Shown: piece after piece, positions 11,219 through 36,185 of the stretch | Position numbering within the stretch: position 1 is the first letter of the stretch | Layout: each line of letters opens with the position of its first letter | NCBI GenBank assembly: GCA_947088675.1 | Contig: CAMUHN010000028.1 | Coordinates: 1-38,728 of the forward strand | DNA length: 38,728 nt | DNA from: an uncultured Roseburia sp. | GTDB taxonomy: Bacteria; Bacillota; Clostridia; Lachnospirales; Lachnospiraceae | Reading direction: 5' to 3' | Made by a program: the position numbers and the translations under genes | Notes under the pieces: generated by a model | Databases searched by the model: none | The model's input: only the letters and a program-made list of their open reading frames with translations | What the model was told of the DNA's origin: nothing

Positions 11219-11390
11219 GTTATTATTCACGAGTCAGGAATGCGCATAAACTGCGCATTCCGTGAGAACATGATTCAGGAGTGAGGGGCGATTTTTGCGC
11301 AGCAAAATTAAACGTAAACGCATTTATGCGTTTACGATATATCGCCCCGAATCGTTGCTATGAACGGCTCCCGAGCCGTGAATAGTAACC
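11219..11390. repeat. nested palindromic element with terminal inverted repeats (MITE/REP-like)
   Basis: The ends are GTTATTATTCACG (left) and the inverse of GTTACTATTCACG (right), 12 of 13 matching. Inside are nested hairpins: GGAATGCGC/GCGCATTCC around 11237-11261, GGGGCGAT/ATCGCCCC (11284-11291 with 11340-11347) enclosing a perfect CGTAAACGCA/TGCGTTTACG, and ACGGCTC/GAGCCGT near the right end. No ORF is needed to explain it. It lies in the leader of the AIM24 gene. Confidence 0.6.
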
Positions 11391-11425
11391 GAAACAATTC
11401 TAATGCAGAAAGAGAGGAAAAACGG

Positions 11426-12265
11426 ATGAAATCCGCAATCGGAACAAGAGAAAACATAAAAATCCTGGAACAATTTGAAAACGGCGGGCTTCGCGTAGAA
11501 ATCCTGCAGTATGACAAGCTGCTCGGTCTGACCAACGCGCAGATGGCAGAACAGATTTATTTTATGGAGCAGCAAAACATACACGTCAGACAGATTGCGC
11601 TCTACTTAAACAATGACAAAGTAACCATTGAAAAAGGAGCCATGAGCTACTTTCAGGGCAATATTGAGATGGTAAGCGGTGTGACGCTTGGAAACGCGCT
11701 CGGACGCCTCGTACGGGGCGCTGTGACAGGCGAACATATGGCGCAGCCGGAATATACCGGAACCGGCCTTTTAGTACTCGAACCGTCTTTCAAACATTTT
11801 CTGGTGCTCCGGCTTGATAAAGGCGAATCGGTCATCGTCGACGACGGCATGTTTTACTGTGCGCAGGGAAGCGTCACTGTCAAAGCTGTCTCCCAGCGCA
11901 ATATTTCCTCTGCCGTAGCAGGCGGAGAAACCTTAATCCAGCAGCAGCTGACCGGCCCCGGCATTATTATACTGGAATCCACAGTACCGCAGGATGAAAT
12001 TGATATCATTGAAATGCAGAATGATACTTTGAAAGTAGACGGCAATTTTGCCGTACTTCGCAGCTCTTCTCTCGAATTTACAGTGGAACGGAGCGCTAAA
12101 ACACTTGTCGGCTCCGCCGTCAGCGGAGAGGGACTTGTAAACGTGTACCGCGGAACCGGGCAGGTATGGCTGGCGCCGACCTTAAAAGTCTATAAGACAT
12201 TGCAGCGGGCAAGCGCACTGGGCGTCGGCGTAAATAAAATCAATATGAATACAAGCAAGGCCTGA
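11426..12265 (+). CDS. AIM24 family protein (DUF124)
   Basis: 279 residues, beta-rich, with no signal peptide or membrane helix. It matches the AIM24/DUF124 family, named after a mitochondrial inner-membrane biogenesis protein; the bacterial role is unknown. Seen: alternating short strands with Gly turns, SYFQGNIEM, GNALGRLVRGAVTGE, the strongly family-like TGTGLLVLEPSFKHFLVLRL and DDGMFYCAQGSVTV, and the closing GEGLVNVYRGTGQVWLAPT. The ATG at 11426 follows AGAGAGGA; an in-frame ATG at 11360 would put coding sequence inside the palindromic element and is not favoured. The gene stands alone, bracketed by two palindromic elements. Confidence 0.85.
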   Translation: MKSAIGTRENIKILEQFENGGLRVEILQYDKLLGLTNAQMAEQIYFMEQQNIHVRQIALYLNNDKVTIEKGAMSYFQGNIEMVSGVTLGNALGRLVRGAVTGEHMAQPEYTGTGLLVLEPSFKHFLVLRLDKGESVIVDDGMFYCAQGSVTVKAVSQRNISSAVAGGETLIQQQLTGPGIIILESTVPQDEIDIIEMQNDTLKVDGNFAVLRSSSLEFTVERSAKTLVGSAVSGEGLVNVYRGTGQVWLAPTLKVYKTLQRASALGVGVNKINMNTSKA

Positions 12266-12278
12266 ACAGGAATCATTC

Positions 12279-12421
12279 CGTGATTCTGTGCCATTTTCCT
12301 TTTGGATCTCTGAGATTCCGCAGAGGGGCAGTGTGAGAAGAACTTCTAACGTTCGCAGCAAAGACGCTAACGCGAAACAAGTTCGCACGCTAAGAAGTTC
12401 TTCTCACGCCAGAGAATCACG
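12279..12421. repeat. long inverted-repeat element between convergent genes
   Basis: Outer arms CGTGATTCT (12279-12287) and AGAATCACG (12413-12421). Inner arms GTGAGAAGAACTTCT (12333-12347) and its exact complement (12393-12407). A further TTCGC/GCGAA pair lies in the loop, and a small CTCTG/CAGAG hairpin at 12309-12324. There is no T tract, so it is not a typical terminator, although it sits between two convergent genes and may act as one. Confidence 0.55.
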
Positions 12422-12439
12422 TTGGCTATATGGAGATTT

Positions 12440-13498
12440 TTATGCATCGGCCATCTTTTTTATAATTCCGCATGTCTTATAGTGCATCAGCGGATAATAT
12501 GCAACCGGAACATTCTTTTCTTTCGCAAGCTGCAAAATCGGAAAAAGTGAAGGGTCATTTTCATATTGCTCTGCCACCAGAATTTTCCAGGGAACCCGCC
12601 GCAGCAGGACGCGTGTTGTCTCCCCAATACCAGGTTTGATCAGATTTATATCGCCAACATCAAAATCTTTCGCTATTTTTTCCACTTCCTGTAAACCTGT
12701 CAGTTTCTGTGCTGTTGGCCTGCTTATATCATGTTCCCGCTTCAGATCAAAATTGCGCTCAATCTCTTCGATAAACGGATAGGTCAGATCGGACTCCGCC
12801 AGTTCACCATAATAGACGGCTCCGTGAAAATCATCTTTTCCAATGACGTCCTCCCGCAGAAACGTCCTGCTGATTAACCCTGTGACCGTACAGTTTAAAC
12901 AGGAACTCGGAATCAGAATATCCTCCGTTGTTCCGCATAAGGCGCCTATTTTCGCAGGATCTGCGACAACCGCAAGATCTGCAGATACACCGGGATACAA
13001 AGCGACATCCTGTTTCAGCTGAGTCCAGATTGCCCCTTTCCCAATCCAGCCGTCTACAAACAGCAGATCTTTCGGCGGATACCGATCTAACAGATACTGC
13101 ATGGCATTCTGATCAATTCCTCTGCCCCGGATAATGGAGATGGAGTAGTGCGGCGCATTCAGATGAAATTTTAACCGCAGATAACGTTTCAACAGTACGC
13201 CGATCGGCGTTCCGGCTCTTGCCAGTGATACAAGCACAACATCTCCCGCTTTTTCGGCCATGATCCGGTCGGCCAGAACTTCGATGGCTTCCGCGGTCGG
13301 TTTTGCAAAACAGGAAAGCGCATTCTCATAGATACGCATATATGGCTCAGTTGGCACATATTCCACCGGAAGCATCTCACTGTAATGTTTTCCCTGCTGA
13401 ATCAGGCATTCCCTCTCTTTCGCCTCCTGCGGTTCTACCAGACCGGTAATATCTTTCAACAGCAAAATAACATCGTCATCCCGAAATGAACTTTTCAT
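12440..13498 (-). CDS. StiP-type phosphoribosyltransferase with C-terminal PELOTA-like domain
   Basis: 352 residues. Residues 1-250 match the StiP family (also described as a PRTase in Ter stress systems): SFRDDDVILLLKDITG, HYSEMLPVEY, VLVSLARAGTPIGVLLKR, APHYSISIIRGRGID, DLLFVDGWIGKGAI, DILIPSSCLNCTVTGLISRT and KDDFHGAVYYGEL. Residues about 285-350 match the PELOTA-type RNA-binding-like domain: LIKPGIGETTRVLLRRVPWKILVA and ending YKTCGIIK. These families were proposed by comparative genomics to build a nucleoside-like metabolite in tellurite/stress clusters; the product is undetermined. The start follows AGAGGATTT, 14 bp after the upstream stop. StiP has also been labelled a cysteine protease, which the motifs here do not decide. 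Confidence 0.87.
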   Translation of the reverse strand: MKSSFRDDDVILLLKDITGLVEPQEAKERECLIQQGKHYSEMLPVEYVPTEPYMRIYENALSCFAKPTAEAIEVLADRIMAEKAGDVVLVSLARAGTPIGVLLKRYLRLKFHLNAPHYSISIIRGRGIDQNAMQYLLDRYPPKDLLFVDGWIGKGAIWTQLKQDVALYPGVSADLAVVADPAKIGALCGTTEDILIPSSCLNCTVTGLISRTFLREDVIGKDDFHGAVYYGELAESDLTYPFIEEIERNFDLKREHDISRPTAQKLTGLQEVEKIAKDFDVGDINLIKPGIGETTRVLLRRVPWKILVAEQYENDPSLFPILQLAKEKNVPVAYYPLMHYKTCGIIKKMADA

Positions 13499-13512
13499 AA
13501 ATCCTCTTTTCC

Positions 13513-15483
13513 TTACACACACCAGCGAATCAGCGTAATATCCTTATTCTGACATGAAACGAGCGCATTCACCAGCGAATTTATCCCTTCTGCTCTGATT
13601 TCGGGCGCATCTGATAAAATAAGAACCTGATCGTAAGTCCCGATCTCATAAAGGAAGGTCTTTCGGCCCGAATCGTAAAAACTCGCAAGCTCATATCTGA
13701 CATGAAGCGGATATTCCGGCTCGCTGCTGACTGCAATCGGATTTCTGCCTGTCGCATGGAAGCGAACCGCACAGCCCGATTTTTCAATCTGTTCCGCCAC
13801 ATACAATGCAGGAAACATAAATTCTTCTGTTCCAAGCACAAGCACGCAATTGCCCGGAGTAAACGAAATCTGCGCTGCGACCTGCTGCCAGAGCCGTTCA
13901 CAGGACTTTACGTACGCTGTTCCGTTAACAAGACGTCTTGCATTCATATATTTGTCTGCCGACAAAATGCGGTATTCACATGCAGGCTGATTCACATCCA
14001 TTTCCCTGTACTGCCCGTCCCCCTGATATGCGTCCGCAATCGCCGTATAGCCGCTCTGATCTGTTTTCATCAAATAGTGCAGTTCAATCTTTTCTTCCAA
14101 AAAGCGCTGTTGTGATGCTTCGTCCATACCATTGACAAATACTGCTGCCGAAAAGAGGATTTCATTTCCGTATTCTTTCCTCATAAGCGAAACGATATTA
14201 CGTATTGTTTTTCCGGTGGTAAGCTCATCGTCAATGAACAGAATACGGTCCACATATTTCATCGCCTGATCCATATCCTCTTTTACAATCTTTTGTTCTG
14301 TTGCGTGGCTGTGCGCCTCCGTAAACTCCAGAAATGTTACGCCATTTAACGACTCCCGTGTCGTTTGAATATAATCCGCCCCAAGTTCCACTGCAACAGC
14401 TGCGCCGATTGCTGTTGCCGTCTCGGCAAATCCAACGACAAGCAGCTTTTCTTCCTTATATTTCTGCGGCAGCTGCGCTGCCAGCCTGCGGCACAATGCA
14501 TGCGCTTTTACGGGTGCGGCCGGTATATATTTCCCCTGAAAACGATTTACCAACAGATAGCTGCGATTTTTATTATTTTCTCTTTTTGCGATTGAAATCA
14601 TCGGCAATTCCGTTTCTTCTTTTTTTCTCTGAAACAGAGAGATCATCCCTTTCTTCTTTTTATTCCAATTTTCTTTCCAACGTATCTTTCGTTCTTCTTT
14701 TTTCAGTAATTTCTGCTGTCGCCGGATTAATCTGTTTTCTTCTTTTGACCTTATTTTCCGATTTCTGCGCACTGCCTTTTTTGCCGCCTGATCAAGCTCT
14801 CTTAAATCGCTCTTTGCTTCTTTTATTTTTCTGGTCAGACAGCGGTACGGATTGTAAAAAAACCACGCGCATGTCGCGAGTACAAGAATCAACGCACTGG
14901 CCTGTACAAATACAGGAAGCAGCATTTCGTATTCTTCCAGTTCCATCTCATAGCAGACAAACAAAATCAGCATGGCCGGAACAATCAGAAGATACAGGAT
15001 TTTACAGAGAAAATCAAGACACGCTCCTCTTTTTTCCCTCTGCGGCAGAAGAGCGCCCTCAATAGCAGTACAGGCCAGCATAAATAACGTGATTTCCACA
15101 TCAAATCCATACAGGGAACCGCATAACGCCACCATAGCAGCCGAAATCAAAAACAGCGCCAGCGCAATTCCCTGATAATATGCATTTTTATACTGCTTCG
15201 CCGCCTCCATCTGATCGGTTGTGATATTGTGCATCGCATATACCTGCCTGTTCAGCTCCTCTTCACATTCTGCATGATAACGCTTTAGCTGCTTTATATG
15301 AGCCATATCCTGCGCAATCGACTGGCTGCGCTCGTCCAGAATCCTCTGTTCTTCAAAAAGAGCTTCTCTCTTCAGATCTTCCGCTTCCCGCTGTCTTGCC
15401 ACCTGCTCTTTGATCCACTCTGCTTTCTGCACACGCAGATTAAATTCTCTGGTATTTTCGCCCTCTGCCATAGTCTCCCACAT
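13513..15483 (-). CDS. coiled-coil/4-TM module fused to PRTase_2 and TRSP domains
   Basis: About 656 residues. 1-100 are highly charged helices (coiled coil) with no signal peptide. Four hydrophobic helices follow at about 103-121, 129-146, 158-178 and 188-210. Then comes a very basic coiled coil, 215-290. From about 300 lies a phosphoribosyltransferase of the PRTase_2 type: GFAETATAIGAAVA and the PRPP loop FIDDELTTGKT at 416-426. The last 150 residues fit the TRSP domain (HATGRNPIAVSSEPEYPL, RTFLYEIGTYDQVLILSDAP). Its partner at 12440-13498 completes a two-enzyme module. The start is uncertain: ATGs at 15504, 15483 and 15471 are possible. The ATG at 15579 overlaps the promoter -35 and is rejected. 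In other genomes I know the PRTase-TRSP part without this membrane front, so the fusion is the odd feature. Confidence 0.82.
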   Translation of the reverse strand: MWETMAEGENTREFNLRVQKAEWIKEQVARQREAEDLKREALFEEQRILDERSQSIAQDMAHIKQLKRYHAECEEELNRQVYAMHNITTDQMEAAKQYKNAYYQGIALALFLISAAMVALCGSLYGFDVEITLFMLACTAIEGALLPQREKRGACLDFLCKILYLLIVPAMLILFVCYEMELEEYEMLLPVFVQASALILVLATCAWFFYNPYRCLTRKIKEAKSDLRELDQAAKKAVRRNRKIRSKEENRLIRRQQKLLKKEERKIRWKENWNKKKKGMISLFQRKKEETELPMISIAKRENNKNRSYLLVNRFQGKYIPAAPVKAHALCRRLAAQLPQKYKEEKLLVVGFAETATAIGAAVAVELGADYIQTTRESLNGVTFLEFTEAHSHATEQKIVKEDMDQAMKYVDRILFIDDELTTGKTIRNIVSLMRKEYGNEILFSAAVFVNGMDEASQQRFLEEKIELHYLMKTDQSGYTAIADAYQGDGQYREMDVNQPACEYRILSADKYMNARRLVNGTAYVKSCERLWQQVAAQISFTPGNCVLVLGTEEFMFPALYVAEQIEKSGCAVRFHATGRNPIAVSSEPEYPLHVRYELASFYDSGRKTFLYEIGTYDQVLILSDAPEIRAEGINSLVNALVSCQNKDITLIRWCV

Positions 15484-15550
15484 CTTTCTTCGCCTGTGAT
15501 CCATTGTAATTTTTTTGAAAGTCGCGCCGCAACAAACATGCCTGAAAAAA

Positions 15551-15579
15551 ATGATAATCCATGCAATGAAAAAATGCAA
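15551..15579 (-). promoter_or_regulatory. promoter for the PRTase/StiP operon
   Basis: Minus strand TTGCAT, 17 bp, TATCAT. The predicted start point near 15544 means the hydrophobic N-terminal extension possible from 15579 is not translated. A separate plus-strand -10 TATAAT at 15624-15629 probably serves ybaK. Confidence 0.55.
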
Positions 15580-15684
15580 GTTTCACACCGTAATTTTTTC
15601 TTTTCATTTCGGCCTGTATTGATTATAATGAGAAAGCATTGTAAAAACAGTCAGATGCAAGTAACGCAGAAATGAGGGAAAAAC

Positions 15685-24984: not shown

Positions 24985-27900
24985 TTATCCTTTTTTTATC
25001 TTTTGCGTTTTCACATAACCGGCTTTCTTTGCCGAAAGCAGTTTTTTATATACATTGTATTTCTTTTTGGGTACTTTATAAGTTGCCTTTTTATGGATTT
25101 TTCCAAATGCGCTGCTGCCTACTTTTTTTAATGATTTTGCTTTTATCGTTACGCTTTTTAATTTTTTACAGCCATAAAACGCCTTTTTTCCAATTGTGGT
25201 TACGTTTGTGCCAATTGTAACGCTTTGCAGTTTCTTCGCGTTTTGGAATGCGCCTGTATGGATCGCTGTCACTTTATATCTCACACCATTTGAAGTAACG
25301 ACCGACGGAATAGTTATATTTTTCACTGTTGCTTTTTTCTGATGTTTCAATACTGTAACCGTTGCTGTCTTTCCCGGGTTACTGGTAACTTTATACCGCA
25401 GATTGCCTGCATTAAATGCGGTTCCTTTTGCCGGTACAGTTACCGGAGGATTCGTACCTGGCTTTTGTACGGCAACCGCTTTTGTTACAACAACAGATAC
25501 TGCAGCTGTTTTCCCCTCATAGGAAATGAGAATCTGATATGTCCCCTCTGCCGCCATATTCACTGCATTCATATCAATGACTGCATCTGCAGTTACGTTT
25601 GACTGGCTGCCGTCAGAGTAGTTTCCGAATACTGCAAGATCGTTTAATATTAACGTTTCTCCTGCAGTATAATCTGTTTTTCCAAGACTCGCCGTAATAC
25701 CGGTCAATATCCGGCCGCTTACTTCTTTGTTATCGGTAAGCGCTACAAAGTCTTCGTTATTTCCGGCATTTTTGTCCGTATCCGGCACTTCCGCCACTAC
25801 ATAATACATGGTATCTTTTTCAAACGGTACTGCGTCAAATGCAATAGAGACCTTATTTTGCGCCTCTGCTTTTGTAATGACGGCACTTTGCACAAGATCG
25901 CCGCCGGCGCTGCCCTTTCGCAGATTTACTTTTATATTTTCTGCATGTTCAAACCCGTTGTTCATAACGTCTGCAAGAATCGTTACCGTTCCATCCCCGT
26001 CATACGCCCAGTAAGCATAATCCACTGCAATATCTTCATAAGAAAGTCCGATGTCCACACGGCCGTCCGGCGATGTCATGCTGCTGCCTGTCGGCATCAC
26101 ATGTATGGATACTGTTTTTCCGATTTGCTCCGTCGGCACAATCATCGGAAAGAGAATCTCAGCAGTTTCGCCTGCCTGCAGCGTATGCTGTATCTCACTT
26201 TCCTGCAGAGTCCGACCGTCCGCATCGGTGACGGCAACATGCAGGCCTGCCACTTTTTCCAGAGAAGCGTTTTTCACTGAAAGCGCGACTTCCATCAGTC
26301 CTTCCGCAATTTCCTCCGAATCGCAGACTGCATCCAGTATGCTCACAGACTTGCCTGGCCTGTACTCTGTCAGCACAAGATCGGTCTGTCCATAAAGCTC
26401 TGCAGCCGAATGTTCATAATCCATTTCTCCTTTGATATTCACCCTGTTGCAAAGCATCTGCAATGCGCCTTCTGACCAGCAGGCAGAAAAATCTGTGATT
26501 TCCGTACTGTCTTTGGGATCGGATATCTGAACCGGCTCACTCCAGCCATCATCTGTTTTTATTACGCCCATAATACTGTTTTTCATTCCATCCGGCGCCA
26601 AAAACAGCACAGCTTCCGTACTGCCATCACAGACAACCCTGTAATCCGTAAAAGGAAATGTTTGTTCCCCTAATACGCGCTCTGTCTGCGGCGATGTGAT
26701 ATCTTTCCTGTAAACGATGTCGCCCCCCTGGCTCCAATACAGCACATGGTTCTCAAATGTTACATTTCTGTCTGATACATCGTTGTCTGTGATCTTTTCC
26801 CCATTGACACAGATCTCCTGATCGAAAACAGTGCCGAAATCTCTGTCTGCATCTAAGGCATATGCCAGAGAATGCACCGACCCGTTCGTATCGGATGCCA
26901 GAGAAAGTACCGCTCCCTCTAACCCATCATAAGAGACAACCGGCTCGCTCCACTGCCCGCCGCTGTATGTACTTGTCAGAATGGAATTGACTCCTTTGAT
27001 TCCAAACCAGTCCATCGCTGAATTTTCTACCCAGGAAACATGTATCATACCGCCGTCGCCGGAAATGACAGGCATAAAAGGCAATGCCTGCGGATTCCTG
27101 CTGAGCGGAACAGCTTCTGAAAAACGGGCATTGGCAAAATCAAACTCTGCTGCCTGAATTTCTACCTGAGAAAGTTCGTTAAGACTGCCTTTGGCACTAC
27201 TGAAAGCTTCCCTGGTATCTTCCCATACTACCATGCAGGTATCGCTGCCAGAGACATATAACTGCGCGTCAAGATCCGGCGTACCATCCTGCTCCACCGC
27301 AGCAGGCTCACTCCAGCCTTTCCCGTCAAAATAGGAATAGTATAAAGTTACCGCATTTACGTCCGCCTCCGGAGCATGGAGCCAGATTGCAATTTTCTTT
27401 CCATCCCCAAATTCTCTGATCTGAGGAGACGTCTCTGATAACGCGTTTTCCTGTACCATCAAAACATCCTGTGCATATTCGCTTTTTGTATTGGAAACAG
27501 GAATTACCTGCATAGAAGCACCGGCTTCATCCAAATATGAGAGATCAGCAATTTCATAATCCTGTGCCCGATACAGCTCTTTTGTATCAAATGCTTCTTC
27601 CATCACAAGTCCGATGCTTTCCACACCGTTATCAATCGTCCACTCTTTTTTCAGCCCATCCGGCTCCCAGGTATGTTCGTAAATGCCCAATGCAGTCAGC
27701 TTAAAATACGCGTTGATTGCCAGCGTTGCAGCAAAGTAGTTTTCTTTTGCGTAATTAAATTTGATCTGGGGAGAAATGCTTGCCTTTCCTCCACCGCCAA
27801 TTGTCGCAATATTTGTATTTCCCAGTCCGCCGCCTACCGAGCCTTCCAGTTTTGCGGAAAGTTCCCCGTTGGGCACATATTTCTTTTTGCCTGCGTCATA

Positions 27901-30207
27901 GCTCATATTGAATCCGGCTTTTGCCTCGCCGCCAATGCTTGCTTCCCAGTATACCGGGACAGGAACCACCACGACCATAACGGACATATTGCCGCTCCAG
28001 TCCGCTTTTGCGCTGATCACCAGATACAATCCCGCTTCCGTGATCCGGATCTTCCTGTTTCCGTCCAGATATCCCTCGGCATAGCCCAGTATCTGAATAT
28101 CCGATTCGACTCCGAAAGAGCCTTTCTTTTTGGCAATGTCATTGCCATATTTTTTCCTGATATTGCTCCATATATTCGATGCAGAACCGGGCTTTGCGTT
28201 TTTTAAATTCTTCACGGATTTGATAAAATCACTGACATTACGTTTCAGATTTTTGTACTGATCCCCAACATTTGTAGAATCCCATTCGCCCTTTTTCTTT
28301 CCGTCACTGTCCGTTGTACTGTCATAAGAAATTTTATCAAGATCAATCCCAAGGGCAGCTTTTACTTTCCCGTCTTCCACCGACACAGTGACAGGAAGAA
28401 TTTCATTTTGTAAAATATCAAGGCTTAATTCTGACCCTCCCAGAAAAGGAACCGCATCCGGAATTGTGAGCTTGATATCATCCCCAAATGACACCTCAAA
28501 TCCTTCCATGCCGGCCGACGCCGAATCCAGCATAAATGCCAGCTGGCGTTTTACCGTGTTTCCTTTCGCATTCTTTGCGATCAGGTAGATCTCTTTGCTC
28601 ACATCAAATGCGTCATGGATCTGAAGAGACATTGTTGTTTTTCCTGTCGGAAAATTCACAAATACCGCTTCCTGTCCCAGCTGCAGTGTTCCGGAATCCG
28701 CATCTCCCCAATCTACATCCACGCTTATCGAAATTGGCCCTGCTTCCGATCCCACAGGATAATCCTCAGAAAGCACATCAATGCTATTGACCCACACCGC
28801 GTGAATCGATGGATTGTCCGATGTTTTCTGCAGATATATTTTCTGATTGTTCGTCAGGTTCGCACAGGCAATTGATCTGGTCTTAAACCCTTCCTTGGAC
28901 ACCTGAATTTCTCCCGTTTTATATTTCGGGACGGCAACCTGGCCATTGGAATCCGCTTTGTATTCCACGCCGTCATACGTGACAATGGCATAGGACGCCT
29001 TTTTATAATTGTCTTTTTCCCTGCTCTGGTCATTTTCATTCTGCAGGATGTTAAGCTTTAATGTTCCGGATGGTTTTTCTTTTGTAACAGTCACCCTGCA
29101 TACCGCCGTATATCCTCCCACAGACGCCGTGATTTCTGCAGTTCCCTCCCGAACAGCCGTAACGGTTCCATTTGCATTCACAACCGCAACTGCCTGATTT
29201 TTTGAACTCCATGTCACCTCCCTGTCTTTGGACGTATATGCGTCAGAAAACACAACGGATAACCCTCTCTTTTCATTTGGCTTTAACGCCAGCGAACTGA
29301 CAGACATAGATACCATGTCCGAATTAATATGATCCGCAAGACCTTCAAAGGAAAACGTGATCTGATCCGCATTACTTACTTCGATATATCCGTTATTTTG
29401 AATATCATTCATAAATGTGGCGGCAAATTGTTTTTCCGTTCCTCTCAGAGAATGAAAATATCCCAGCGAATAGATAATATATTCACTTTCGATCCCATGA
29501 AAAGTGTTATAAACTGCGCTGCAGTAAGGAGAACTGCTATGGGAAAACGCATTTCCGTTTGGATCTGTATATTCTGTTCCCCCGTACCGCGCGTCAGGAC
29601 CGTTGTAAGCGGTTCCTTCGTTTGGCATACCATCAGCCATCACAATCAGATACTGCTGCGCGGCTTCGCCGTAAGTCTGCAGCACATTGTCTCCTTCCGC
29701 CAGTCCGGCATTCATAGCCGTGCCGCCCAATGGGCTTAAGCTGCGGATTACGCTCCTTAAGTCACTGCGGCTGTTGGTAAAATACTCCCCGTCAAATGTA
29801 TAGGTTCTTACCCTGCTTTCAAATGCGACAATGCCGATGCCAACATCCGGATCTTCTGCCAGAATATCGTCTACAAAATTATAGCAGGCTTTTTTCAGCT
29901 GGCTTAAAGGCGTTCCGCTCATACTGCCGGAAACGTCCAGAACAAGCACAATTTCATTGTTCCGCGTCTTTTGGGCGGCGTCCGTTTTTCCCTTTTCCGA
30001 TACCACCCAGTCAACCGTTTCATACGCCACATCAAGCGAATCAATCGTTACGTCTTCCTTTCCTGCTTTCTCTATGGTTTCCCGATCCGGCTCCTCCTCT
30101 GCAAAACATGTTTCAGCGGCGCTGGTCAGGCAGCCGTTTCCAAGCAGCAGAAGAAAACACATACATCCTGCAAGCCAGGCAGATACGATCCTTTTTCCTG
30201 TTTTCAT
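24985..30207 (-). CDS. giant secreted VWA / Ig-like / BspA-type LRR protein
   Basis: 1740 residues. Signal peptide (1-31). VWA domain about 85-295 with a complete MIDAS site (D91-x-S93-x-S95 in LVLDVSGSMSG, T162, D191). Big_2 Ig-like domain about 299-375 ending in the ITASVGGYTAVCRVTV pattern, then a carboxypeptidase-regulatory-like domain. The long centre is beta-rich and includes a stretch like a beta-propeller or sialidase-type (repeated WSEPV motifs). Then a CARDB-like module (VTILADVMNNGFEHAENIKV), a Big_3/4-like domain, and a C-terminal LRR_5 region of the BspA type (about 1583-1740) ending in a Lys-rich cap. No LPXTG or membrane anchor. Probably an adhesin or matrix-binding surface protein. 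14 bp behind the BspA-like gene, with GAGAGGGGAGAG before its ATG. Confidence 0.88.
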   Translation of the reverse strand: MKTGKRIVSAWLAGCMCFLLLLGNGCLTSAAETCFAEEEPDRETIEKAGKEDVTIDSLDVAYETVDWVVSEKGKTDAAQKTRNNEIVLVLDVSGSMSGTPLSQLKKACYNFVDDILAEDPDVGIGIVAFESRVRTYTFDGEYFTNSRSDLRSVIRSLSPLGGTAMNAGLAEGDNVLQTYGEAAQQYLIVMADGMPNEGTAYNGPDARYGGTEYTDPNGNAFSHSSSPYCSAVYNTFHGIESEYIIYSLGYFHSLRGTEKQFAATFMNDIQNNGYIEVSNADQITFSFEGLADHINSDMVSMSVSSLALKPNEKRGLSVVFSDAYTSKDREVTWSSKNQAVAVVNANGTVTAVREGTAEITASVGGYTAVCRVTVTKEKPSGTLKLNILQNENDQSREKDNYKKASYAIVTYDGVEYKADSNGQVAVPKYKTGEIQVSKEGFKTRSIACANLTNNQKIYLQKTSDNPSIHAVWVNSIDVLSEDYPVGSEAGPISISVDVDWGDADSGTLQLGQEAVFVNFPTGKTTMSLQIHDAFDVSKEIYLIAKNAKGNTVKRQLAFMLDSASAGMEGFEVSFGDDIKLTIPDAVPFLGGSELSLDILQNEILPVTVSVEDGKVKAALGIDLDKISYDSTTDSDGKKKGEWDSTNVGDQYKNLKRNVSDFIKSVKNLKNAKPGSASNIWSNIRKKYGNDIAKKKGSFGVESDIQILGYAEGYLDGNRKIRITEAGLYLVISAKADWSGNMSVMVVVVPVPVYWEASIGGEAKAGFNMSYDAGKKKYVPNGELSAKLEGSVGGGLGNTNIATIGGGGKASISPQIKFNYAKENYFAATLAINAYFKLTALGIYEHTWEPDGLKKEWTIDNGVESIGLVMEEAFDTKELYRAQDYEIADLSYLDEAGASMQVIPVSNTKSEYAQDVLMVQENALSETSPQIREFGDGKKIAIWLHAPEADVNAVTLYYSYFDGKGWSEPAAVEQDGTPDLDAQLYVSGSDTCMVVWEDTREAFSSAKGSLNELSQVEIQAAEFDFANARFSEAVPLSRNPQALPFMPVISGDGGMIHVSWVENSAMDWFGIKGVNSILTSTYSGGQWSEPVVSYDGLEGAVLSLASDTNGSVHSLAYALDADRDFGTVFDQEICVNGEKITDNDVSDRNVTFENHVLYWSQGGDIVYRKDITSPQTERVLGEQTFPFTDYRVVCDGSTEAVLFLAPDGMKNSIMGVIKTDDGWSEPVQISDPKDSTEITDFSACWSEGALQMLCNRVNIKGEMDYEHSAAELYGQTDLVLTEYRPGKSVSILDAVCDSEEIAEGLMEVALSVKNASLEKVAGLHVAVTDADGRTLQESEIQHTLQAGETAEILFPMIVPTEQIGKTVSIHVMPTGSSMTSPDGRVDIGLSYEDIAVDYAYWAYDGDGTVTILADVMNNGFEHAENIKVNLRKGSAGGDLVQSAVITKAEAQNKVSIAFDAVPFEKDTMYYVVAEVPDTDKNAGNNEDFVALTDNKEVSGRILTGITASLGKTDYTAGETLILNDLAVFGNYSDGSQSNVTADAVIDMNAVNMAAEGTYQILISYEGKTAAVSVVVTKAVAVQKPGTNPPVTVPAKGTAFNAGNLRYKVTSNPGKTATVTVLKHQKKATVKNITIPSVVTSNGVRYKVTAIHTGAFQNAKKLQSVTIGTNVTTIGKKAFYGCKKLKSVTIKAKSLKKVGSSAFGKIHKKATYKVPKKKYNVYKKLLSAKKAGYVKTQKIKKG

Positions 30208-30221
30208 AGTCTCTCCCCTCT

Positions 30222-33200
30222 CTATTTTGTCTTTTTACCTGCCACTTTACTCCATGGTCCGTAATACCTTTCTCCTTTTACCGTTTTATAGGCTCTGATT
30301 CTGATATAGTATTTTTTCTTTGCTTTCAGTTTTGTGATATTTTTGCTTGTTGTCTTTGACGATTTTATCCACACAGTCTTTTTTCCGGAAAAATTCTTTT
30401 TCAACGCAAGCTGAATCTGATAACCGGTTATACCGCTTTGTTTTTTCCATTTGAGTTTCAGACTCTTTTTCTTCGGCGTTATTTTCTGAATTACGGCTCT
30501 TTTGATCACCGGAGCTTTCGTTGCCGGAGTATCCGGCGCGTCGGGTCTGCCTGTCGTATTTTGCGAATCGTCCGGTTTTGGCGTCACGCCCGGTGTTTCT
30601 GTGCCGGGTGTTTCTTGCGAACGATCCGTCACGGATACGTTGCACACGGCAACAATATTTGTCCCATCTGTAGAACGGCACTTGATATCTGCTTTTCCTG
30701 CCGCTGCTGCCGTTACAAGGCCATGTTCATCCACCGTCGCCACACGGGAATTTGTCGTATACCATTCTACAGACGGCGTTGTGATAAAAGCAGGTTCAAA
30801 GACCACTGACACTGATTTTGACTCTCCTGGTTTTAATTCCATTTTGTTGACAGCAAATGAGATATCCGTCAGCTGGTAAGAGACGACTACATAGCATTCT
30901 GCCGTATATCCGCCTTCTAATGTCTTTACTGTAATTGCAGCCGTTCCGCTGTTTTTAGCCGTTACCCTGCCGTTTTCATCTACGGACGCTACGTTTTCAT
31001 CGCTGCTTTTAAAAGAAACATCTTTCAAATCCGCATTTTCCGGATAAACAGCCGCCGTAAGCTGCGCCGTTTCCCCTGGCCGCCTCAGATAAACTGTCCG
31101 CTGATCCAGAGTAACATGTTCCACATGAATGTCTACGTTTCGCACTGTCACAATACATTCCGCATAATAGACAACATCTTCGGGCGTCTCGGGAACATTG
31201 CTGACAGTAATTTTCGCTGTCCCGCTGTTTACTGCCGTGACATATCCGTTTTCATCTACAACAGCCACGCTCTCGTCCGAGGAACTCCATTTCAGCTCCT
31301 GCTCTTTACATCCCTCCGGCAAAATTTTTGCTGTCAGGGCCGCCCCCTCCGAAGTCAGAAAAAGAGCGGAATCTGATAGCTCGATGCCTGTCATCTCCAT
31401 TTTGGTATCGACATTGACAAAACAGTATGCCCGCATGGAGCCGTCTTTCAGCATCGCTGTAATTCGCGCAACACCTTTTCCTATCGCCGTCACGGTACCG
31501 TCTTCATCTACCGTTGCAATTGTTTTATCCGATGTTTTCCATACCAGGGCAGCATTGTCGGCATCGTAAGGGCTGATCCGGACTTTTAACTGTTTCTTCT
31601 CCCCAGGCTCTGTCAGGTAAAGATAACTTTCGTCAAATGACAGGCTCGTCACCAGATTTTCCGATGTTACAGCAATAGTCTGAGAAACTGCTCCTGCTTT
31701 CACCGTGATAACAGCCGCGCCTTCATTCTGCGAAGTGACAATCGCCTCCGTGGGGTTATCCCCATCCGCTTTTACTGATATCGTTTCTGCATCACTGCTT
31801 TCCCACACAATGGCATCCGTCATTGTCTCCGGCATGACGTCAATGCGAATTGTCCTGTTTTGCCAGTTAGCCAATGTTAAGGATGTCTGCTTGACTGTAA
31901 TCGCTTCCGCCGCAATTCCTTTTTGGCTGTCAAACACAATGCCGTTCTCACCCGCAAACGTTTCCGCATAGCTTCCGGCCGCGCCTCCGATTGTCAGAGA
32001 CGGAATATCTGCAAACGCATCTGGCGCAATAGAAGAGGTAACTGCAGGAATCGTAATCAGTTCCAGAGATGCATTCCCTGCAAACGCGTTCTTTTTAATA
32101 CGCTTTACTTTACAGGGCAGGTTTACCTCTTTCAGATCGCAGGACAGAAATGCCGTATCCGGAATTTCTGTGAGATCCGAACCAAACGTCACAGTTTTCA
32201 GCCCCGTACAATTTTCAAATGCCCCGTTCCCCAATGTCTGTAAATCCTTTGGCAGGCTGACCGCTCCTATTCCGACGCAGCCGTAAAACGCGCCCGCGCC
32301 AATCGTTTCTATCTGTTCCGGCAATACTGTATCCTGCAGCGCCGCACATTCAGAAAATGCTCTGTCTCCGATAAAACTCACAGTATCCGGAAATATAAGT
32401 TCCCTTAATGATGTGCAGCCCAAAAACGCAGAATCTTCAATTTCGGAAAGAGTATCCGGCAGGCTTACCTCTTCTAAGCCGGTGCAGCCATAAAACAGGT
32501 TTGCCGCTATCGTTCTTGTTTTTTCTGCAAATGTCGCTTTCTGCAATGACGGGCCGAAAGGTCCCGCATTATTGTATACGCTTACCGTTGTCAGACTCCG
32601 CGGTATCCTGACTGAGATCAGGCTTTCGCAATCAGCAAACGCTCCCCCGTCCAGGGACACAATCCCTTCGGAAAACCGGATCGTATTTAACTTTTCACAG
32701 GAAGCAAACGCTCCCCTTGCAATACGTTTCACAGATGAAGGAACAGAAAGCGTCCGAAGCGCGCTGCATCCCTCAAATGCATGATTGGAAATTGTATCCA
32801 GAAAAGCGCATTCGATATTAACCGTCCCCACTGACGTACAACCATAAAACGCTTTCTCTCCCAGATTTGTAAGCCCTTTTGGCAATGTTACCTGCTGCAG
32901 AGCAGTACAGCCGCTAAACGCATTCGATCCGATTGTGCTTACCATATCCGGAAATGCAAAACGTGTCAGCGCCGTGCATTCATGAAAAGCATAACCGCCA
33001 ATTTCAGTCAGTTCCTCCGGAACCTGAATCTGCGATAAGCCGGTACAGCCGCTGAAAGCGTAATTTCCAATCCCAGTAAATGTTTTGGGGAAAATCACAG
33101 CCGTAATTCCTGTCATCTGATAGAAACTGTAAGTACCCAGATATGTAATGCCATCCTGTATTAGAACCGTTGTAAACGAATCGTTTTTCCAGGGCTGGTT

Positions 33201-36098
33201 ATTTCTCGAATAATCACAGGACGGCCCGTTCCCCCGTATCAATAGTGTTTCATCTTTTACATAAGCCAGAGCCGTATCCGTCAGTTTATAAATGACAGTT
33301 TCCGTATCCAAAATCCGATTGTCGCCTTCCCAGTCATAATCCGCCGCGGCGGTATTTTCCGATTCCAACAGAAAAGTAAGGGGATCCGGCAAATAAAACG
33401 CGTGCGTTCCGATGGATTTTACATCCGATCCAATTACGATATAATCCAGGCGCCTGTTATTGGCAAAGGCATACTCGCCAATCGTTTCCAGAGAAACACA
33501 GTCTCTTAGCCAAAGATCCGTAAGAGCGCTCCCGTCAAATGAATGTGCTCCGATCTGCGTTATATTGCTTCCGATAAACAGATACTGCATTTCTGCCAGA
33601 TATTCCCGCCAGGGAAGCTCGTCTGCGCTGGCATAATCTGCCATCGCCCCGCTTCCGACAATTGCCAGAAACCCGTTTTCAAACGCCAGAACCCTGCCGT
33701 TTTCCCCTGTCTCATAGCTGTTTACTGCATATAAAGGCGTGATATTGGAATTTGACCAGTCGTAATTCTCACGCAGCCAGGTATTTTCTGTCTCTACCAT
33801 CAGTTCCGACCGGGCAGAACGATAAAATACATTGCTGTTTAACGTATCAGCCGTCAATTGATTTCCTAACGATACAATGCGAAGCGCGTTGCAATTGGCA
33901 AAAGCTCTGCTTCCAATTTGTCCTACGCTCTCCGGAACCACAATATCCCGCAGACTGCTGCAGCCGGAAAATGCTTCGCTGCCAATTGACGCCAGGCTAT
34001 CCGGCAAAGCAATGGTAAGCAATCCGGAACAATTGGAAAAAGCATAGTTTCCAATTGACGTAACGGCAGCAATTCCGTCTTTGCTGCTCTCAAATTCCAC
34101 CGTTGTAAGTTTATTCATATTTCGGCAGGCATTCGCCGGTACTGTCTGTATTCCGGAAGAAAATACTACACGCTGCAAGAGATCGCAGTCCGCAAATGCG
34201 CCGCTGCTTCCCATAGCTGTAACGGAAGCCGGAATCGTGACAGATGCTAATGCATCGCAATTTCCAAACGCGTTGTTCTCTAATGTCTCCACATTACGTA
34301 AATCCAGATTTTTCAGCGCCATACAACCGTAAAATGCATTTGATCTTACTATCGCTACCTGGTTTAAATCAATGTTATCTAGTATTTTACAGTTCTGGAA
34401 TGCGCTTCTGCCAATCTCTGTTACGCTGTCCGGTATTATAATTTCTGCAAGTCCGCCGCAGTAATAAAACGTATATTCCCCCAGAGATGACAGCCCTGTC
34501 GGCAATTTCACTTCCGCAAGCAGCGTGCACCCCTCAAACGCATGATTTCCAAGGGTGATCAATCCGTCCGGCAATTCTATTGTTCTCAATGATGTACAAT
34601 TTCGGAACGCATAATCCCCAACCTCTTCCACTTCGCAAACACCGTCCGCATTTTTTTCAAATACGACATCTGTAAGATAACTTATTCCGGTACAGGCATA
34701 GGGCAGTATATTTTTCGTTCCCGCCGTAAAAACCACCTGTGTCAGCTTCCTGCAGTTGGTAAATACGCCGGCTGTCCCAACAGTCGTAACTGTCGGCGGA
34801 AACTCTATGGACTCCAATGCGTCACAGCCGGAAAATGCGCTGTTTTCCAGCTCATTCACGCTCTTTAAATCGATTTCTGACAATGTGGCGCAGCCGTTAA
34901 ATGCATTTGCCCTCACTGTATTAATCCGATTTAAATCTATGCGTTCCAAAGCCGCACAATTTTGGAATGCCCCCCTGGAAATCTCTGTAATTTCATCCGG
35001 CAGGCTGATTTCTTTCAGCGCACTGCAATTGCGAAATGCATATTCCCCAAGGGACGCAAGACCTGTCGGCAAATCCGCTTTCACAAGCAGGCTGCATCCC
35101 TCAAATACATTGTTTCCAAGCGTCTTCAGTCCGGCTGGCAGATCAATCTCCTGCAATGACGTGCAGTTTCGGAACGCGTAATTCCCAATCTCAGCAACTT
35201 CGCAAATACTTTCTGTATTTGTTTCAAATATCAGTGTTGTAAGATTATTCATACCTGCGCAGATATAGGATGGTATCGCTTTTGTACCTGCCGCAAAAAC
35301 CACCTGCGTCAGTTTTTTGCAACTGGTGAAAGCCCCGCTCGTACCAACTTCCGTAACTGTTGACGGAATCTTAACGGACTCCAATGCATCGCAGTGAAAA
35401 AAAGCATTATTTTCCAGTACCTTAACGTTCTTCAAATCAACGATCGACAATACAATACAGCTGTTAAACGCGTTGGATTTCACCGTAATAACCTGATTCA
35501 GATCTATGCGCTCCAGGGCTGTACAATTTTGAAATGTGCCTCTGGCAATTTCCGTTATTCCATCTGGCAGATTAATTTCTGGCAGCATGCTGCAATTGTT
35601 AAATGCATATTCTCCTAAAGATACCAGTCCCGTCGGCAAATCCGCTTTCGCAAGCATCTTACAGCCCTCAAACGCATTGTTTCCAAGCGTCTTCAGTCCG
35701 TCTGGCAGAACGATTTCCGGCAATGCCGCACAATTTCGGAACGCATAATCCCCCATAGATTCCAGTTCAGAGGGAAGATTTACCTCAATCAGCGCATTAC
35801 AATTATAAAAGGCATATGTTCCAACCGACACCACGCCTGATTCAATCACTACTTTTTGGATTGAATTTCTCTCTTTGTACCACGGGCTGCCGGAGCCGCT
35901 CCAGTTCTTCATTTCTCCTGCGCCGCGGATCGTCAATACCCCATCCTCTGTCAGTTCCGCCTGCAGTCCTTCTCCTACCTGTTCAGACGGATAAGTCGCC
36001 GCCATAGTTTCTGCTGCCTGTGCCGGCTGTGGCATTCCGAATACATAGATCCCACATACGACCAGAAATAACCAGCATAGATTTTTCCATTTTTTCAC
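30222..36098 (-). CDS. giant secreted BspA-like LRR protein with Ig-like and Fn3 domains
   Basis: 1958 residues from a GTG that follows AGGGAGAGGAAAT; the upstream in-frame ATG at 36140 lacks this. Signal peptide 1-29 (ends PAQAA). LRR_5 (BspA/Treponema) repeats of about 23 residues fill roughly 60-1395, with the recurring pattern AFxxCxxLxxIxLPxxLxxLGxx. Residues 116-682 are three copies of one 189-residue block. Five Big_2 Ig-like domains lie at about 1400-1825, each with a SSDExxAxVDExGxVTAxxxGxAxIT-like core. A Pro/Thr-rich linker follows, then a Lys-rich Fn3 domain (about 1866-1958). No sortase signal. Likely a host- or matrix-binding surface protein; target unknown. First gene of a two-gene operon. 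Confidence 0.92.
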   Translation of the reverse strand: MKKWKNLCWLFLVVCGIYVFGMPQPAQAAETMAATYPSEQVGEGLQAELTEDGVLTIRGAGEMKNWSGSGSPWYKERNSIQKVVIESGVVSVGTYAFYNCNALIEVNLPSELESMGDYAFRNCAALPEIVLPDGLKTLGNNAFEGCKMLAKADLPTGLVSLGEYAFNNCSMLPEINLPDGITEIARGTFQNCTALERIDLNQVITVKSNAFNSCIVLSIVDLKNVKVLENNAFFHCDALESVKIPSTVTEVGTSGAFTSCKKLTQVVFAAGTKAIPSYICAGMNNLTTLIFETNTESICEVAEIGNYAFRNCTSLQEIDLPAGLKTLGNNVFEGCSLLVKADLPTGLASLGEYAFRNCSALKEISLPDEITEISRGAFQNCAALERIDLNRINTVRANAFNGCATLSEIDLKSVNELENSAFSGCDALESIEFPPTVTTVGTAGVFTNCRKLTQVVFTAGTKNILPYACTGISYLTDVVFEKNADGVCEVEEVGDYAFRNCTSLRTIELPDGLITLGNHAFEGCTLLAEVKLPTGLSSLGEYTFYYCGGLAEIIIPDSVTEIGRSAFQNCKILDNIDLNQVAIVRSNAFYGCMALKNLDLRNVETLENNAFGNCDALASVTIPASVTAMGSSGAFADCDLLQRVVFSSGIQTVPANACRNMNKLTTVEFESSKDGIAAVTSIGNYAFSNCSGLLTIALPDSLASIGSEAFSGCSSLRDIVVPESVGQIGSRAFANCNALRIVSLGNQLTADTLNSNVFYRSARSELMVETENTWLRENYDWSNSNITPLYAVNSYETGENGRVLAFENGFLAIVGSGAMADYASADELPWREYLAEMQYLFIGSNITQIGAHSFDGSALTDLWLRDCVSLETIGEYAFANNRRLDYIVIGSDVKSIGTHAFYLPDPLTFLLESENTAAADYDWEGDNRILDTETVIYKLTDTALAYVKDETLLIRGNGPSCDYSRNNQPWKNDSFTTVLIQDGITYLGTYSFYQMTGITAVIFPKTFTGIGNYAFSGCTGLSQIQVPEELTEIGGYAFHECTALTRFAFPDMVSTIGSNAFSGCTALQQVTLPKGLTNLGEKAFYGCTSVGTVNIECAFLDTISNHAFEGCSALRTLSVPSSVKRIARGAFASCEKLNTIRFSEGIVSLDGGAFADCESLISVRIPRSLTTVSVYNNAGPFGPSLQKATFAEKTRTIAANLFYGCTGLEEVSLPDTLSEIEDSAFLGCTSLRELIFPDTVSFIGDRAFSECAALQDTVLPEQIETIGAGAFYGCVGIGAVSLPKDLQTLGNGAFENCTGLKTVTFGSDLTEIPDTAFLSCDLKEVNLPCKVKRIKKNAFAGNASLELITIPAVTSSIAPDAFADIPSLTIGGAAGSYAETFAGENGIVFDSQKGIAAEAITVKQTSLTLANWQNRTIRIDVMPETMTDAIVWESSDAETISVKADGDNPTEAIVTSQNEGAAVITVKAGAVSQTIAVTSENLVTSLSFDESYLYLTEPGEKKQLKVRISPYDADNAALVWKTSDKTIATVDEDGTVTAIGKGVARITAMLKDGSMRAYCFVNVDTKMEMTGIELSDSALFLTSEGAALTAKILPEGCKEQELKWSSSDESVAVVDENGYVTAVNSGTAKITVSNVPETPEDVVYYAECIVTVRNVDIHVEHVTLDQRTVYLRRPGETAQLTAAVYPENADLKDVSFKSSDENVASVDENGRVTAKNSGTAAITVKTLEGGYTAECYVVVSYQLTDISFAVNKMELKPGESKSVSVVFEPAFITTPSVEWYTTNSRVATVDEHGLVTAAAAGKADIKCRSTDGTNIVAVCNVSVTDRSQETPGTETPGVTPKPDDSQNTTGRPDAPDTPATKAPVIKRAVIQKITPKKKSLKLKWKKQSGITGYQIQLALKKNFSGKKTVWIKSSKTTSKNITKLKAKKKYYIRIRAYKTVKGERYYGPWSKVAGKKTK
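34053..35753 (-). repeat. 567-bp tandem triplication within the BspA-like gene
   Basis: The landmark G(D/N)YAFRNC recurs at residues 130, 319, 508 and 697 (numbered from the 36140 ATG), always 189 residues apart. This gives three units: 35187-35753, 34620-35186 and 34053-34619. Copies share near-identical segments such as LKTLGNN.FEGC, LGEYAF.NCS and ALERIDLN but have drifted at many positions. Confidence 0.85.
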
Positions 36099-36185
36099 AT
36101 TTCCTCTCCCTTCATAGACGCAAGCATGTCTCAAACACACTCTGTAACAACAGGTACACGTTCTACGTTTGTTTCAAACAGGCTT

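Follow-up and report, generated by a model that had tools for sequence, protein, structure and literature searches.

We describe a pair of adjacent genes for two putative phosphoribosyltransferases (PRTases), located on the minus strand at 12440..15579 of a contig stretch of 38,728 nucleotides (hereafter the window) from the draft genome of an uncultured Roseburia sp. (GCA_947088675.1, contig CAMUHN010000028.1). The pair is likely a displaced and reduced nucleotide-making arm of the host's Ter (tellurite/stress) system that is anchored at the membrane in this species. One of the two proteins, a PRTase_2-TRSP enzyme, is joined in frame to a four-helix membrane domain. A sister species keeps both enzymes and only a relic of that domain, and neither genome yielded the lyase or the HAD phosphatase-type enzyme that often accompany these PRTases.

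The fused protein and the origin of its membrane domain

The open reading frame (ORF) list gave a two-gene operon with an intergenic gap of 14 bases (13499-13512). The 360-residue ORF matched StiP (PF11202, E 5.7e-96, 321 bits) and PELOTA_1 (PF15608, E 8.5e-30, 102.8 bits), these two profiles spanning most of the protein. The 688-residue ORF matched PRTase_2 (PF15609, E 1.1e-40, 139.6 bits for a gathering score of 28.8) at residues 328-494 and TRSP (PF12500, E 6.8e-19, 68.4 bits for a gathering score of 25) at residues 565-672. All four domains were above the curated Pfam cut-offs, in agreement with the families named in an earlier note made from the sequence alone, and the failure of the profiles that this note had allowed for is ruled out. 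The features of the locus are the following.

12440..13498, minus strand: StiP-PELOTA_1 protein (Pfam), 352 residues from ATG 13498, stop codon 12440-12442
13513..15504, minus strand: fused membrane domain-PRTase_2-TRSP protein (Pfam), candidate starts ATG 15504, 15483 and 15471
14854..15471, minus strand: residues 37-242, comprising the charged coil and the four membrane helices; homologues form a standalone membrane-protein family
14602..14853, minus strand: basic coiled-coil linker, residues 243-326, surviving as a relic in the sister species
14599..14601, minus strand: in-frame ATG (MISIAKREN), candidate internal start, near the start of the sister's and other standalone PRTases
13516..14601, minus strand: PRTase_2-TRSP part, residues 327-688
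14206..14238, minus strand: loop FIDDELTTGKT predicted to bind phosphoribosyl pyrophosphate (PRPP), residues 448-458, APRT-like fold
13735..13752, minus strand: TGRNPI (TTRSPI in relatives), TRSP domain
15542..15581, minus strand: conserved upstream block (92.5% identity to the sister) holding a weak TTGCAT-17-TATCAT by eye, possible promoter
11360..12265, plus strand: AIM24-family gene (PF01987, Pfam), convergent with StiP

The start of StiP (ATG 13498) is the same as in the sister species (L073:7331). For the fused gene, TTG 15579 is probably too far upstream, since nucleotides 15542-15581 are conserved upstream of the sister's gene, and one of the three ATG codons is a more likely start. 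The own promoter claimed in the earlier note was not recovered: the consensus scan listed no minus-strand promoter upstream of the fused gene, and the weak element seen by eye inside the conserved block is absent from its list.

About 290 additional residues precede PRTase_2 (some 300 had been noted before), formed by a charged coil, four hydrophobic segments (residues 138-156, 161-179, 190-208 and 219-237) and a strongly basic coil, with 31 K/R for 12 D/E in the 82 residues 245-326. The AlphaFold model exhibits a helical N-terminus, the membrane part being of low confidence.

The 688-residue protein was used as query over 481 genomes (G000-G480, G000 being the window's genome). At most two candidates per genome were scored in the family sample, which covers part of the family, so that further fusions are possible; 21 family-sample genomes with weak matches only (E 1e-5 to 1e-3, residues 313-516) were treated as carrying other PRTases and dropped before counting. 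Two kinds of strong match were obtained. Those of the PRTase_2-TRSP type start at about residue 290-328 in frames of mostly 370-460 residues and were found in 42 genomes (11 of the genus, the window's included, 30 of the family sample and 1 of the order), while those of the membrane type end at residue 287-347 in frames of about 300-450 residues and occur without PRTase in 29 of the 481 genomes (20 of the genus, 9 of the family sample). Both parts in one frame were seen in the window's genome only.

The 20 genus genomes match the N-terminal part with E values of 2.3e-76 to 9.4e-41, within residues 33-347. By these matches, the N-terminal part is an independent Lachnospiraceae membrane-protein family of predicted coil-four-helix-coil type. 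Sixteen standalone relatives (L030, L061 and others) align to it at 31-44% identity over 231-292 residues and have the same layout, ending in a basic coil; unlike the window's protein, they are 298-437 residues long and carry no PRTase, and the sequence retrieved around them showed no Ter gene; judged by eye from their ORF starts, some neighbours of these genes look like glutamate synthase and M3 peptidase, a reading given no weight here. Three standalone proteins scanned with Pfam showed no family near or above the cut-off, and the assignment of the membrane part to an XpaC-like or another named family was accordingly dropped. Of the 25 positions with conservation of 90% or more in the 16 relatives, the fused copy retains 22, the relatives themselves missing 0 to 8; since these positions are kept, the fused membrane part is to all appearance a maintained domain with no sign of decay.

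The membrane domain was rejected as a regular Ter partner. Among the 62 genomes of the genus it does not co-occur with StiP (5/12 genomes with StiP vs 16/50 without, p 0.52), and among the loci read its adjacency to PRTase_2 is confined to the window and the sister's relic. A mobile-element origin was rejected as well: the viral-contig scan matched none of its patterns, and 80% coverage of the fused protein was reached in none of the 1441 plasmid records and none of the 5 phage records that matched.

A sister species with a relic of the anchor and the same motif change

The sister locus lies in another uncultured Roseburia sp. metagenome-assembled genome (G477, CAMUGE010000042.1, contig L073). 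Long blocks of the two neighbourhoods are 86-91% identical at the DNA level, and the order Gate-domain gene, AIM24, StiP, PRTase_2-TRSP, tRNA_edit, GGDEF, ABC permease is shared. The sister differs by a deletion of the membrane part. The sequence that would encode the first coil and all four helices is gone, and upstream of the PRTase there remain the conserved block and a basic-coil relic with stop codons and a frameshift, while the ORF of the PRTase is intact, with 84% identity to the window's. As the stretch from the final relic segment to the PRTase is free of stop codons, an ancestral fusion with later loss of the anchor in the sister would be the simplest history, and the fusion is probably older than the split of the two species; an ancestor with two adjacent genes, not yet fused, is a conceivable alternative.

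The ratio of nonsynonymous to synonymous substitution rates (dN/dS), calculated between window and sister by a counting method, was 0.14 for PRTase_2, 0.27 for TRSP (with a low dS of 0.20) and 0.16 for StiP-PELOTA, which points to purifying selection on both enzymes. The five neighbours (AIM24, tRNA_edit, GGDEF, Gate and ABC permease) gave 0.03-0.12. Since the sister retains the enzymes without the membrane part, the anchor is dispensable for their retention. The action at the membrane proposed in the earlier note is possible in the window's species and it is not needed, the sister's enzymes being under purifying selection without the membrane part.

The two genomes also share TGRNP in place of TTRSP in the TRSP domain, a family presumably named after its T-R-S-P motif. 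Reading of 89 loci, some of which overlap the same gene, gave 82 TRSP, 1 TCSP, 1 TLSP and 5 GRNP, the last all from the window's and the sister's genomes. The changes T575G and S577N (numbering of the 652-residue chain) are thus present in both lineage members and in no other locus with a readable motif. More distant members vary, with SRSP on a Pseudomonas plasmid (L144) and a degenerate motif in phage ME3 (L145); because of this variation the motif seems not absolutely required, and by profile the fused protein is a PRTase_2-TRSP member, variant in its motif. At conserved PRTase_2-TRSP positions the two lineage members depart in 3 and 4 of 51, for 0 to 4 of 48-51 in the other 36 rows; at conserved StiP positions they depart in 2 and 3 of 119, for 0 to 14 in the other rows. 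From these alignments, the lineage stands out by where it has changed and not by how often.

Relation to the Ter system and missing partners

We surveyed 45 loci, a set of 41 together with L026, L027, L028 and L035; L026 and L088 are the same contig. Their flanks range between a few bases and about 12 kb, which makes the neighbour counts lower bounds. StiP follows PRTase_2-TRSP in 41 of them, and the flanks hold a C-C lyase in at least 31, HAD in at least 19, TerD in at least 12, YceG in at least 9 and TelA in at least 8. StiP is present in 12 of the 62 genus genomes, TerD in 11 and both in 11, i.e. TerD is found in 11/12 genomes with StiP vs 0/50 others (Fisher p 2e-11, uncorrected for relatedness). 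The exception without TerD, G004, has StiP (C113:1476-2207) and the lyase (C113:175-1110) near a contig end.

The window's genome contains a Ter core on contig C11, in the order P-type ATPase, TerD, TerD, TelA, YceG, rhomboid and trypsin/YceG, and further TerD matches on C5 and C29, which brings TerD to three contigs. The same core is present in the sister, most genes being 95-98% identical at the protein level and the trypsin/YceG gene 85%. The gene pair, on contig C28, has no physical linkage to the core, and in the sister it is likewise apart. Because the Ter core is encoded in the same genome and StiP co-occurs with TerD, the pair is very probably part of a Ter system, yet unlinked from its core. 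The self-contained pathway of the earlier note finds no support in these data; the Ter cluster elsewhere that it had considered does exist, on another contig, while the single StiP and the single PRTase_2-TRSP genes found in the whole genome are both within the window.

The C-C lyase profile gave no match in the draft genomes of the window's species and of the sister, and neither did a Ter-type HAD from the genus used as query. The same HAD query matched in all 8 other genomes tested, all lyase-positive (G004 and G478 were outside this search). Among 33 PRTase_2 genomes, 29 passed E 0.001 for the lyase, with three weak partial matches (G170, G228 and G369), and four had no match (G000, G477, G075 and G299); the lyase was undetected in G478 too, which is 61% complete. 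For a dedicated Ter-type ATP-grasp the matches were background-like only: the model gave two in the window's genome, in frames of 1079 and 1080 residues that by size may be carbamoyl-phosphate synthase, and it also matches 13 of 14 control genomes. Of the partners that the earlier note proposed to look for, TerD and TelA were found and HAD was not. The reduced character of the module, already noted, is supported by these searches, the absence of HAD and lyase being provisional.

According to a passage of PMC7824862, PRTases and HAD enzymes form the signal-making part of Ter systems. In the window's PRTase_2-TRSP protein the PRPP loop is kept, and structure alignment, whose rows mostly cover residues 289-479 and barely the TRSP and membrane parts, points to a type I, APRT-like PRTase fold; no solved relative was found by sequence at E 0.001. 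The StiP-PELOTA model resembles HGPRT/PyrR-type phosphoribosyltransferases and, partly, L7Ae. Since PRTases come out as its best fold matches, the name 'cysteine protease StiP' used in databases may be misleading. Cysteine chemistry is nevertheless conceivable for StiP, as C200 is present in 28 of 29 rows and C343, H38, H117 and H225 in 29 of 29. When the PRTase_2 and TRSP halves were compared with hhalign, the TTRE of the PRTase aligned with TTRSP (E 3e-4, probability 38%), a hint that TRSP could be a PRTase-like domain too, in degenerate form.

Among the closest known counterparts is the PRTase_2-TRSP / StiP(PRTase_1)-PELOTA pair of Ter systems, for example on plasmid NZ_CP097104.1 (L143), where the same two families lie close by, with the PRPP loop and PRTase-type folds. 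That cluster runs through ATP-grasp, trypsin-like, PRTase, sugar-phosphatase-type HAD, StiP, lyase, HAD and TerD (annotated). Unlike it, the window's pair has only AIM24 alongside, no HAD or lyase found in its genome, the TGRNP motif and a PRTase_2 fused to a membrane domain. N-terminal fusions at about the same boundary occur in a HAD-PRTase_2-TRSP (G228, L065/L149; 662-residue frame within a Ter cluster) and a C-C lyase-PRTase_2-TRSP (G244, L146 3477-5609; one frame of 729 residues). Their partners are pathway enzymes, whereas the window's belongs to a membrane family for which no Ter link was found. What is new here looks like a membrane-fused, reduced form of the known Ter pathway and not a new pathway.

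The earlier note had placed the pair between housekeeping genes. This is right only in part, since AIM24, its convergent neighbour, frequently adjoins TerD according to a passage of PMC5822837 citing the 2012 Ter paper. An AIM24 78% identical to the window's adjoins a Ter lyase (L082). More distant AIM24 proteins (40-48% or about 30% identical) were matched in 44 of the 62 genus genomes, with or without StiP; being found irrespective of StiP, AIM24 as such is not Ter-specific, and its position beside StiP fits a Ter association.

Some other observations were made. The gap between the converging AIM24 and StiP genes contains, at 12333-12407, a 15-nucleotide perfect inverted repeat with 45 nucleotides between its arms. 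The minus strand of 12320-12440 folds to −40.7 kcal/mol (z −4.6 vs shuffles), and the DNA match to the sister is broken around the repeat (12273-12431), which may be a terminator acting in both directions or else a small repeat element. Two adjacent, very long minus-strand ORFs of 1740 and 1972 residues occupy 24985-36140. In the Ter core, L024:14652-16256 joins a trypsin-like peptidase domain to a YceG-like part, and a trypsin-like gene is also present in the plasmid cluster L143. The label of a defence system was discarded, as PADLOC gave weak matches only (PRTase_III-A, E 2e-4, for the fused protein; PDC-S09, E 8e-4, for TelA).

Proposed role of the pair and alternative explanations

We propose that the nucleotide arm of the Ter system moved off the Ter core and was cut down to its two phosphoribosyltransferases, which, presumably expressed from one transcript, would build a phosphoribosylated compound from PRPP. 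The APRT-like PRTase_2-TRSP would move phosphoribose from PRPP onto a base-like acceptor, and StiP-PELOTA, with its HGPRT/PyrR-like PRTase and L7Ae-like domains, would perform or control a second step. The product would then act on, or signal to, the TerD/TelA/YceG machinery, whose genes lie elsewhere in the genome. Before the window's species and its sister diverged, the PRTase_2 gene was probably joined in frame to an unrelated four-helix membrane gene, whose product would anchor the enzyme at the cytoplasmic face of the membrane in the window's species, both ends of the domain being predicted as cytoplasmic because the helix count is even and a basic coil follows the fourth helix. The sister would later have lost the anchor and kept the enzymes, and the in-frame ATG 14601 could also yield a soluble form.

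Several points weigh against this proposal. The two drafts are 87.6% and about 90% complete, and the missing HAD and lyase could lie in gaps; gaps are the less likely cause because the same two absences recur in both genomes. The fold matches of StiP are weak, and the dN/dS values of PRTase_2-TRSP and StiP, above those of the five neighbours, indicate a weaker constraint. The product of the Ter PRTases and its link to TerD are both predictions from comparative genomics; in a literature search which did not cover the founding 2012 paper, no report identifying the product was found. Finally, the membrane family does not track StiP across the genus.

This last point bears on the fusion itself. 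A neutral or weakly useful fusion is rated above a purposeful one, because the membrane partner has no link to the pathway. It is possible that a stop codon was simply lost between neighbouring genes, that ATG 14601 still gives a soluble PRTase and that the anchor is irrelevant and drifting to loss. The anchor was indeed lost in the sister, the membrane family shows no tie to StiP in its distribution, and the in-frame ATG (MISIAKREN) lies close to where the sister's ORF and other standalone PRTases start. Against such drift, the fused frame has neither stop nor frameshift and 22 of its 25 conserved membrane-part positions are kept, and just a weak GGAA, by eye, precedes the internal ATG.

It is doubtful, in our view, that the PRTases have been re-purposed, so that, lacking HAD and lyase and with the TRSP site altered, they would make a different, still phosphorylated product, the anchor placing its synthesis at the membrane. 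The T575G and S577N changes restricted to the lineage and the failure to find HAD and lyase in either of its genomes argue for this, and lend some support to the different product of the earlier note; purifying selection on the enzymes and the conserved positions of the membrane domain agree with it. However, the sister has given up the anchor, the lineage's counts of departures at conserved positions fall inside those spanned by the other rows, and the motif varies in distant members (plasmid SRSP, phage ME3). In addition, the lyase was undetected or weak and partial in five other PRTase_2 genomes, as it was undetected in G478. An altered product is possibly made by what we regard as a displaced Ter arm. 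Rather unlikely is the more specific case of a Ter-derived signal synthase whose altered phosphorylated product would be released at the membrane via the captured anchor, where TelA-type sub-membrane structures are thought to act; if true, the sister species would be a natural anchor-less control.

A self-contained membrane pathway independent of Ter is very unlikely. The pair does stand apart from the Ter core in both species, and in G170 (L147) an unfused pair occurs within 18 kb of retrieved sequence that shows neither Ter genes nor lyase, TerD having not been searched genome-wide there; the distribution of TerD in the genus, following StiP, and the Ter core in the same genome speak against it. 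An artefact of assembly or of reading frame is hardly credible, even for a draft genome and a fusion seen only once, as the frame is continuous over 652 codons and in the sister a relic of the same coil immediately precedes the PRTase at the syntenic position; by this relic the frame error or mis-assembly, which the earlier note had considered, is rejected as the origin of the fusion.

The most interesting aspects of the displaced Ter arm are the sister pair with and without anchor, and the combination of an altered TRSP site with HAD and lyase found in neither genome. A lineage with both PRTases, seemingly without HAD and lyase, shows which steps of the pathway may be dispensable, and the two sister species provide a natural test of whether membrane location matters.

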